A stretch of DNA of 51,130 nt, from positions 1 to 51,130 of the forward strand of contig JAQWHD010000014.1 of the NCBI GenBank assembly GCA_029237915.1. Direction: 5' to 3'. The stretch's first letter is position 1. The number at the start of each line of letters is the position of its first letter. Below the pieces are notes generated by a model. It saw nothing but the letters and a program-made list of their open reading frames with translations, was not told where the DNA came from and searched no databases. Origin of the DNA: Thalassotalea sp. (GTDB lineage: Bacteria; Pseudomonadota; Gammaproteobacteria; Enterobacterales; Alteromonadaceae). This document shows, one piece after another, positions 216-24,345 of this stretch. The translations under genes and the position numbers were made by a program.

Positions 216-254
216 AAAAAAGCCCCAAACATTTTACAATGCAGGGGCTTTTTT
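216..254 (-). terminator. Rho-independent terminator after ribBX
   Basis: AAAAAAGCCCC (216-226) pairs with GGGGCTTTTTT (244-254) around a 17-base loop. Read on the minus strand it follows the ribBX stop by about 17 bases and ends in a U-tract, so it should end the nrdR-ribD-ribE-ribBX transcript. A/T runs on both sides would also let it work in the other direction. Confidence 0.85.
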
Positions 255-22310: not shown

Positions 22311-23369
22311 TTACAGAGCGTTACTCGTCGTTTGACGGGTTAAAAACATTGCATCTCCATAACTAAAAAATCGGTATTCATTTGCTATTGCTTGCTTATA
22401 AGCATTCATTATGTGGTCGTAACCAGAAAATGCACTCACTAACATCAATAATGTTGATTCTGACAGATGAAAGTTTGTCACTAGTGCATCTATCAATTTA
22501 AATTCGTATCCTGGGGTGATAAAAATATCTGTATCACCATAAAATGCAGATAACTCTTTACCTTGCTCTGTAGATTTTTTTGCTGCACTTTCAAGGGAGC
22601 GAACCGACGTTGTACCAACGGCAATCACTCGATGACCTGCAGCTTTAGTCGCTTTAATTTGCTCGACTACATCCTGACTTACTTCAACGTACTCTGAATG
22701 CATTATATGCTCAGATATTTGGTCAACCTTTACTGGCTGAAAAGTACCTGCGCCAACATGCAAGGTAACAAACGCTAGGTTAACGCCTTTGTCTTTAATT
22801 TTTTCTAATAGTTGAGTTTCAAAATGTAAGCCCGCAGTAGGAGCTGCTACTGCACCGGGTTTTTCATTGTATACGGTTTGGTAGCGTTCTCTGTCAGAGT
22901 TTTCATCTGGGCGGTCAATATATGGAGGTAATGGCATATGGCCAATATCTTCAAGTACTTCAAGTACTGTTTGTTCGCTGTGAAATTCAAGTTCGAATAA
23001 CGCTCCGTGGCGAGCAACCATAGTGGCATTGACTTTACCTTCGAGTAAAACTTCATTACCAATTTTCAGTGCTTTACTGGCTCGAACATGAGCAAGTACG
23101 CGAGAGTCATCGACAACTCTTTCAACCAAAACTTCTATTTTACCACCCGTAGATTTCACCCCGAATACTCGAGCAGGTATAACCCTTGTATTATTAAACA
23201 CTAGCAGATCACCAGGTAATAATTTATCGATTATTTGGTTAAACTTAAGATGCTCTAACTCCCCACTATTACCGTCTAATGACAGTAAGCGGCTGGCTGA
23301 GCGTTCAGCCTGTGGATAACGAGCAATAAGCTCGGTTGGCAATTCAAATGAAAAGTCAGATACTAGCAT
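22311..23369 (-). CDS. queA: S-adenosylmethionine:tRNA ribosyltransferase-isomerase
   Basis: Transfers and isomerises the ribosyl group of SAM onto preQ1-tRNA to give epoxyqueuosine. 352 residues (E. coli 356). Diagnostic stretches: [17 protein letters not shown] at the start, [34 protein letters not shown] and [11 protein letters not shown]. First gene of the queA-tgt-yajC-secDF run. A -35/-10 pair sits about 40-65 bases upstream of the start. Confidence 0.97.
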
Positions 23370-23407
23370 GGTTAAATAGGTTCAATTTCAGCTTAAAAAA
23401 ACGCGTA

Positions 23408-23436
23408 ATTGTAGTGCTGAAAGAGCGTAATAGCAA
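23408..23436 (-). promoter_or_regulatory. Promoter of the queA-tgt-yajC-secDF operon
   Basis: On the minus strand TTGCTA (complement of 23431-23436) and TACAAT (complement of 23408-23413) are 17 bases apart. The predicted start near 23401 gives a leader of about 30 bases to the queA ATG. Confidence 0.6.
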
Positions 23437-23537
23437 GGATAATTGTGTAACAACATCTAGCTATTAGGTGCGAGGTAGCAACATAAAGTTTATAACTTTA
23501 GGGCGAAAATGTGGTCAACATAGAACAAGCGATTAAA

Positions 23538-23699
23538 TTAGCTAGTTTCTTTTTCTGTTTCGAGTTCATCTTCGGCTGGTGTGTAAAAATTTTTAGGGCA
23601 AACTTTAGATTCGATATAGCTGATATCAACCTGAACTTTTTTAGTTTGTGGTTGTTGCTTCTTGCCAGTGATTTTTGTGAAAAACTTCAAGATACTCAT
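23538..23699 (-). CDS. Small basic/acidic protein of unknown function (53 aa)
   Basis: I do not recognise this protein. The start is set at the ATG at 23699 because an AAGGAG Shine-Dalgarno lies 7 bases upstream; a longer frame to 23726 would bypass it. The 53 residues start MSILKFFTKITGKKQQ (amphipathic and lysine-rich), have a middle VQVDISYIESKVCPKNFY with a single cysteine, and end in an acidic tail (AEDELETEKETS). No membrane segment. The Shine-Dalgarno is in the loop of a perfect hairpin, preceded by two more hairpins, which suggests translational control. Monocistronic, between queA (same strand, downstream) and tRNA-Trp (divergent). Confidence 0.6.
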   Translation of the reverse strand: MSILKFFTKITGKKQQPQTKKVQVDISYIESKVCPKNFYTPAEDELETEKETS

Positions 23700-23775
23700 A
23701 CTTAAACTCCTTTTAAGTATCCGCAATAAATTAATTATTTAATGTGCGGATTAATACTACCAAGTGGGTATTAAT
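23699..23775 (-). promoter_or_regulatory. Structured leader with three consecutive hairpins, Shine-Dalgarno in a loop
   Basis: Hairpin next to the start: TACTTAAA and TTTAAGTA (23712-23719 and 23699-23706) enclose the loop AGGAG, which is the ribosome-binding site; the A of the start codon is the last paired base. Upstream, TCCGCA/TGCGGA (23720-23725/23745-23750) enclose a nested TAAAT/ATTTA stem. Farther up, ATTAATAC/GTATTAAT (23750-23757/23768-23775). All arms are perfect and the three stems are contiguous. Function as an RNA switch or thermosensor is inference. Confidence 0.6.
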
Positions 23776-24015
23776 TATTTTTATTAGCCTACATAGTAGA
23801 CAGATTTTAATTTATTTCAATTAGTTTTATGTAAAAATAATGTAAACAACATTTATTAACCTTAAAAACAGCCAGTAATAATTCGCAAAACTAGAACAAC
23901 GCGAACAATTTTGGTTGAAAAACTAGCGCATAGAGCAATATTTGAGCGAACGAACAATTTATTTAAATTTTTTCTTTACCTTTAAAAAAGCATACGTATA
24001 ATGCGAAGCCATTGC
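23700..24015. other. Intergenic region between the 53-aa gene and tRNA-Trp
   Basis: About 316 bases. It holds the three-hairpin leader (to 23775), an AT-rich stretch with TTTACA-like boxes that should include the promoter of the small gene, and the tRNA-Trp promoter (23975-24002). No other gene is visible. Confidence 0.65.
23975..24002 (+). promoter_or_regulatory. tRNA-Trp promoter
   Basis: TTTACC (23975-23980), 16-base spacer, consensus TATAAT (23997-24002), then the GC-rich discriminator GCGAAGCC, typical of stable-RNA promoters under stringent control. The start would be a few bases before the tRNA. Confidence 0.75.
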
Positions 24016-24092
24016 AGGGGTGTAGTTCCAATTGGTAGAACAGCGGTCTCCAAAACCGACGGTTGGGAGTTCGAATCTCTCCACCCCTGCCA
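24016..24092 (+). tRNA. tRNA-Trp (anticodon CCA)
   Basis: Full cloverleaf with encoded CCA. Acceptor AGGGGTG (24016-24022) pairs with CACCCCT (24082-24088), discriminator G; D-stem GTTC/GAAC; anticodon loop CTCCAAA with CCA at 24050-24052; T-stem GGGAG/CTCTC around TTCGAAT. The first pair of the anticodon stem (G27/A43) is mismatched, as I recall from other marine gammaproteobacterial tRNA-Trp genes. A single tRNA, no cluster. Confidence 0.97.
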
Positions 24093-24171: not shown

Positions 24172-24345
24172 TTAAAACAACTCTCTCAATAAACCAATAG
24201 TTAACGAAATAAACACCAAGATAATAATTATTTTGCTGTATTTACTCTGTTCTTTTTCTTCCATCGGTTTAGCGTAACGTTCGCCGAAGTACACCATCAA
24301 AGCAACAACAGCAAATACAGCCCCTAAAATTAAAAATAAAGTCAT
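24172..24345 (-). CDS. Small two-helix membrane protein (57 aa), function unknown
   Basis: I do not recognise this protein. The ATG at 24345 follows AGGTAAAGGT, a reasonable ribosome-binding site. The 57 residues form two hydrophobic helices: MTLFLILGAVFAVVALMVYF at the N-terminus and KIIIILVFISLTIGLLREL near the C-terminus. They are joined by a charged loop with GERYAKPMEEKEQSKYS, giving a hairpin topology with both ends on the same side. The gene lies between tRNA-Trp (other strand) and the Lon-like protease gene (same strand, 95 bases upstream). Codon use resembles its neighbours and the gene is plausible despite its size. Confidence 0.65.
   Translation of the reverse strand: MTLFLILGAVFAVVALMVYFGERYAKPMEEKEQSKYSKIIIILVFISLTIGLLRELF

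Follow-up and report, generated by a model that had tools for sequence, protein, structure and literature searches.

The window analysed here is a stretch of 51,130 nucleotides from Thalassotalea sp., and its minus strand carries a small-protein gene (23538..23699) of 53 codons plus a stop, with the ATG at 23699..23697. It is followed on that strand by queA (22311..23369), and this order is kept in all 13 genus orthologues with enough flanking sequence, where queA lies 121 to 595 bases further on. A promoter-like TTGCTA-17-TACAAT (23436..23408, minus strand) is located just upstream of queA together with a CGCG-containing block, seen by eye in several orthologues, which suggests that queA has its own promoter, independent of the small gene.

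On the other side, a tRNA-Trp (CCA) gene (24016-24092, plus strand) is transcribed divergently from the small gene; its sequence was also recognized by eye upstream of queA at locus L073 of genome G001, where the small gene is absent. Between the tRNA-Trp gene and a lonB-like protease gene there is an ORF of 57 amino acids (24175-24345, minus strand), which is 91% identical in L002/L011 and has no Pfam or NCBIfam match above cut-off. Its sequence reads as that of a small membrane protein, with the neighbour read as the lonB-like protease. An antisense frame of 64 codons (23511-23705, plus strand) is open over the small gene, has no Pfam match and is probably a by-product of composition.

The 53-codon gene had been proposed in a first-pass annotation, which also advised a search for homologues. 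The ORF is present, and a profile search finds orthologues in 14 of the 15 genomes of the window's genus, with further homologues in genus g49, described below. In five close pairs of the eight computed dN is 0.009-0.14 and dS is 0.39-1.6, the other three pairs being near or beyond saturation, and these rates mark the small gene as real and under purifying selection. The gene is not recognisable in G001, either by the profile search or in the region upstream of queA. A single-sequence genome scan gives one locus, and the profile search marks another, weak place in the window's own genome. The start codon is ATG in 10 orthologues, TTG in two, GTG in one and ATC in one; the ATC belongs to L003 (genome G003, 252..250), where the operator context is otherwise kept and the genome is 78% complete, and it may be a rare start or an assembly error. 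An N-terminal extension of the protein through the leader hairpin was considered and rejected, since in L004, L005, L006, L007, L009 and L012 there is no ATG, GTG or TTG from the start back to the preceding stop codon; in the window, a TTG does lie in frame nine codons before the start.

The window protein is made of a predicted N-terminal helix, a basic stretch, a KVQVDI motif and an acidic tail. The AF2 model contains a helix at residues 3-11 (mean pLDDT 69.5, pTM 0.19), and models from both branches of the family show one short helix each (pTM 0.19 and 0.18), with the fold not confidently predicted. What the two branches have in common is a short helix predicted near the N-terminus, a stretch of basic residues, a motif like VxVDI and a tail of polar or acidic character. 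At E <= 0.001 there is no family match for the window protein (Pfam, NCBIfam, PHROGs), for the 14 genus members (Pfam) or for 25 members of the second branch (Pfam, NCBIfam), and the genus profile finds nothing in the PDB. The best matches beyond this threshold are single members at E 0.0039 (Pfam DUF6506) and 0.086 (NCBIfam), and 0.66 in the PDB. The window protein has no match in the phage and plasmid collections, titles and abstract starts among the literature matches listed contain nothing on the small gene, and queA is absent from the available text of PMC2659441. Described earlier as unrecognised, the protein is not isolated but belongs to a two-branch family encoded beside queA.

Upstream of the gene, three contiguous perfect stem-loops had been reported. 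The leader (23697-23780) does fold into three adjacent hairpins, with an MFE of -19.4 kcal/mol and z of -3.5, and none of 200 dinucleotide shuffles folds as low; the last hairpin is perfect, while hairpins 1 and 2 are interrupted. Hairpin 1 (23750..23775, minus strand) has an 8-bp perfect outer stem and an interrupted inner part, and hairpin 2 (23721..23749, minus strand) has 5 bp, beyond which an internal loop leads to an inner stem. The start-codon hairpin (23698..23720, minus strand) has 9 bp and a five-base loop AGGAG, and its 3' arm ends in the AU of AUG, in agreement with the claim that the A of AUG is paired. When a 191-nt fragment with the gene start is folded, the MFE structure opens this hairpin and the centroid keeps it.

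A perfect stem of at least 9 bp with Shine-Dalgarno letters in the loop arises in 0.05% of 20,000 mononucleotide shuffles of the leader, and one of at least 7 bp in 0.6%. None of the 131 candidate starts of the 54 mechanical ORFs in the window (at least 100 codons, stop to stop) has such a stem of 6 bp or more; among 392 mechanical ORFs in 400 kb of the sister genome G004, three have a stem of 6 bp and none reaches 7 bp. Start hairpins of this size are exceptional. Over the whole window only tRNA-Trp exceeds the Rfam gathering score, and a search of 23370-24015 with E up to 5 yields a single match, on the plus strand and below cut-off (E 1.4).

A sigma-70-like promoter TTGAAA-16-TACTAT (23793..23820, minus strand) matches the consensus and would place the transcript start near 23786, so that the leader would be almost entirely hairpin. 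Promoter-like sites are found at varying distances in eight of the 14 orthologues, the window included, with 45 to 100 nt between the -10 box and the start, the boxes having been picked by hand by the author from among the matches. In these eight orthologues, the position of the start-codon hairpin is fixed relative to the start codon and not to the predicted promoter. Hairpins 1 and 2 were rejected as conserved parts, because the short leaders L004, L005 and L006 contain no upstream structure and because the upstream part of the leader, folded at a default leader length for six of the 14, has z of -3.2 in the window and between -1.9 and +0.9 in the other 13.

The conserved part is the 19-mer ACTTAAAAGGAGTTTAAGT (23700..23718, minus strand), directly 5' of the start codon, which is proposed below to be a CsrA operator of a long-stem variant. 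Its ANGGA motif (23708..23712, minus strand) is also the Shine-Dalgarno core, and ANGGA is found at -13..-9 in 14 of 14 orthologues. With L055 and L060 left out, mean pairwise identity among the other 12 orthologues is 92% at -19..-1, compared to 32% at -40..-21, 30% at -60..-41, and 60% and 57% in the gene's first two 19-base stretches. With all 14 it is 85% for the element, 28% and 31% for the two upstream stretches and 58% and 49% for the two gene stretches. Conservation drops sharply at the hairpin edge, and the hairpin hardly varies among the 14 orthologues although their start codons do. Of the regulatory leader postulated earlier, the last hairpin is thus upheld by conservation far above its surroundings, while the three-hairpin unit is not conserved; the last hairpin does behave as a Shine-Dalgarno presented in a loop to a trans-acting factor would.

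Stems in the genus are mostly of 7-9 bp and loops mostly of 5 nt. In the short-window MFE at the start, 12 of the 14 orthologues have all three bases of GGA in the loop, the exceptions being L055, where GGA is partly paired, and L060, which is unstructured; these two form 5 and 4 pairs, respectively, around an ANGGAN hexaloop only when the search is restricted to stems around GGA. When the full predicted leader is folded, nine of 14 MFE structures contain the hairpin, and those of L003, L007, L054, L055 and L060 lack it. Most variants retain the hairpin: the loop carries a G to T change in L004 and L005, is longer in L054 and is one base shorter in L012, where the 7-bp stem remains, and L003 closes with a G-U pair. 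Since L060 is sister to L010 in the queA tree and L010 has a 7-bp stem, the long stem has probably been weakened more than once. The covariation proposed earlier as a check is negligible in the genus and too thin to serve as proof of pairing: the alignment, in which the L012 gap is misplaced, has one pair with two-sided changes, and 410 of 500 shuffles do as well.

With up to one mismatch allowed, 10 of the 15 genus genomes contain the 19-mer, each in a single copy and always 5' of the small gene. A regulon element was therefore rejected for the genus, where the 19-mer is single-copy and gene-specific. At the same stringency, the family sample yields two matches in its remaining 380 genomes, judged by eye to lie within a reading frame (L103) and 5' of an unrelated frame (L104), and the reversed control gives five in all 395.

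The family extends beyond the genus. The genus protein profile gives weak matches in another family of the order, three of them directly upstream of queA, and a profile with these three added matches 25 genomes of genus g49 (394 genomes of 115 genera sampled), so that the notion of a genus-only orphan was abandoned. A profile built from g49 matches 114 of 129 g49 genomes, two of the matches (L260, L261) being weak, apparently false and non-orthologous in appearance. At least four g49 genomes (G494, G508, G520, G555) were unmatched in earlier samples; the later profile picked up two of these four and missed the other two. The homology of the branches is indicated by an hhalign probability of 97.1 (E 5.4e-11) together with queA synteny, queA being next on the same strand in 25 of 25 g49 loci checked, in a gene order that we take to resemble that of Shewanella. 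Within the family of the window, protein matches outside the genus are weak (16 genomes, E 2.6e-4 to 0.097), and none of the four inspected (L056-L059) is a plausible orthologue. Upstream regions of queA from other genera of the family (28 of 29 fetched, L096 left out) gave five loose matches in a loose motif screen, which diverged copies could escape, and all five were judged unrelated by eye.

In g49, TCANGGANGAT (TCA-N-GGA-N-GAT) occupies -9..+1 in 110 of 114 starts. These starts come from related genomes and amount to 40 distinct sequences at -16..+2. As RNA the element reads AUC-ANGGAN-GAU(G), in which a stem of three pairs closes the ANGGAN hexaloop at the start codon. Among the 110, the first free loop position is A in 56, T in 46, C in six and G in two, the second is T in 88, A in 12 and C in 10, and the outer pair -10/+1 is A-U in 101 and G-U in nine. 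The four without the exact motif are L248, which keeps TCAAGGATGA and is seemingly one codon shorter, L257, which has lost it, and L260 and L261. In 63 newly fetched g49 loci the stem has 3 bp in 60, 5 in one and none in two.

The g49 GGA is placed at -5..-3 and ends 2 nt from the presumed AUG; a T at the second N creates an in-frame ATG at -3, which could also be the start and is overlapped by the GGA. Being either too near the AUG or overlapping the ATG at -3, the loop GGA cannot be the Shine-Dalgarno. A separate GGA is found at -12 in 22 of 25 g49 leaders, and the queA starts of the same 25 loci have an ordinary Shine-Dalgarno at -11..-8 and lack the hairpin pattern. Mean pairwise identity across these 25 loci reaches 81% for -14..-1 and 78% for the gene's first 14 bases, against 26-30% upstream and 45-49% further into the gene. 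The motif occurs 51 times in 49 loci (307 kb, both strands), two above one per locus. A further ANGGA lies at -54 to -74 in 10 of the 25 leaders (L142, L144, L145, L153, L157, L159, L160, L161, L162, L165), reading AAGGATGT in five of them, and is possibly a second CsrA site. The operators of the two branches do not align in sequence.

ANGGAN is the motif recognized in RsmN binding of RsmZ-2, through an AAGGAU loop, and in RsmE binding of the hcnA hairpin (PMC3791407), and the repeats of CsrB read CAGGA(U/A/C)G (PMC7652899). The g49 element can be read as a Csr/Rsm operator with good confidence, because its ANGGAN loop matches the CsrA element, only the unread loop positions vary, and CsrA genes are present. 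Neither ribosome binding nor temperature nor coding readily explains why variation is restricted to the two loop N. The csrA gene is found in 25 of 25 g49 genomes and in 14 of the 15 genomes of the window's genus, the miss being G003, which is 78% complete. In the window's genome there is also a second, partial CsrA-like match (G000:C8:27779-27886, profile positions 17-52, E 1.5e-11).

For the window's genus, the same assignment follows from homology of gene, place and loop motif and is held with less confidence, because the stem is longer, the loop is mostly of five bases and 13 of the 14 leaders have a single ANGGA; GGA is also ambiguous there, since any Shine-Dalgarno looks alike. Taken as a whole, the hairpin is judged, with moderate confidence, to be a translational operator of the Csr/Rsm type for genes of an undescribed family of small proteins, and in the window's genus it takes a long-stem form. 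At the level of sequence, the support comprises a sharply conserved hairpin that is anchored to the start codon of a real gene, the CsrA-type site in g49 and csrA in both genera.

In such an arrangement, CsrA (RsmA) would bind the loop holding ANGGA, which is the core of the Shine-Dalgarno, and the bound protein would clamp the hairpin shut and keep the 30S subunit off. CsrB-like RNAs or another antagonist would draw CsrA off, the weak AU stem would then open and the small protein would be made. Binding by CsrA, repression through that binding and the reading of the long-stem form by the same protein are what we infer. The small gene would probably be a switchable member of the CsrA network, and with the gene in nearly every genome of two genera and the operator almost fixed in its letters, it is likely to be a regular Csr output. 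A speculative and, in our view, improbable extension is that the small protein is itself a dedicated component of the Csr network, produced only once CsrA has been titrated away and with CsrA or membrane-bound partners as the target of its feedback, operator and protein together being a conserved module beside queA.

Among the other explanations, intrinsic tuning survives best and is still unlikely. Here the AU hairpin itself would lower ribosome access, or modulate it with temperature, without a trans-acting factor, as is suggested by a stem made almost entirely of AU, whose predicted folding energy at the gene start in the window weakens from -9.4 kcal/mol at 4 C to -4.3 kcal/mol at 37 C. 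RNA thermometers likewise have an AU-rich stem at the Shine-Dalgarno, but there the Shine-Dalgarno is paired at low temperature, whereas here it is in the loop. An element maintained for structure only should also drift by compensatory change, and the letters here are nearly fixed; moreover, the g49 pattern, with its two free N and its fixed GGA too close to AUG for a Shine-Dalgarno, is left unexplained.

Autogenous control, with the small basic protein binding the hairpin at its own start codon, would account for the occurrence of the 19-mer only 5' of the small gene in the genus and for the finding that the weakest hairpins, those of L055 and L060, go with the most diverged proteins (21% and 19% identity). 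It is made improbable by the operator in g49, which differs and fits the consensus of a known foreign regulator, and the fold of the protein is not confidently predicted. The dyad, whose arms match perfectly over 7 bp (9 bp in the window) on either side of five bases, could also be bound as double-stranded DNA by a dimeric repressor, which is very improbable given that its position is tied to the start codon rather than to the predicted promoter, that there is one copy per genome, that the half-site spacing is shifted by one base in L012 and that only a 3-bp dyad is kept in g49. Least probable of all is a small RNA pairing with the exposed AGGAG loop, as the element, at up to two mismatches, occurs at other places in the 15 genus genomes with roughly the frequency of the reversed control pattern, although this is a weak test because a 7-12-base seed would suffice.

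The findings define a small-protein family that had no match at E <= 0.001 in the searches above, and give it a predicted regulator. If CsrA reads the long-stem form, the logic of a GGA loop clamped on the start codon would have been kept while the letters and the stem length changed.

The hcnA site reads UUC-ACGGAU-GAA. The pairs hcnA/RsmE and RsmZ-2/RsmN resemble the g49 element in having an ANGGAN loop on a short stem, whereas in the window's genus the stem has 7-9 bp and the loop is mostly of 5 nt; here, the gene encodes an uncharacterised small protein, the stem reaches the start codon and the site is predicted (PMC3791407). Most SELEX-derived CsrA hairpins have 6-nt loops with GGA and four or fewer pairs (PMC7652899), a form which g49 fits and from which the longer stems and mostly five-base loops of the window's genus depart. 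According to PMC6028588, CsrA usually uses two sites, and hfq of E. coli is cited with one consensus copy. A single ANGGA is present in 13 of the 14 genus leaders, while g49 has the extra GGA at -12 in most leaders.

The hfq leader likewise carries its one CsrA consensus copy at the Shine-Dalgarno; it differs in that a conserved strong hairpin is found here, and further hfq sites are modelled in the same paper (PMC6028588). The ehxB leader of E. coli O157:H7, also a target of CsrA, has two sites, and its gene is unrelated (PMC9132389). In pslA of P. aeruginosa, RsmA stabilises a hairpin that excludes the ribosome, which would suit the long-stem form, although the Shine-Dalgarno is in the stem there and in the loop here (PMC7652899). 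The glgC leader of E. coli likewise has GGA both in a hairpin loop and at the Shine-Dalgarno, with CsrA competing with the 30S subunit, whereas in the window's genus, where one of 14 leaders has a second ANGGA, one element would do both jobs (PMC7652899).
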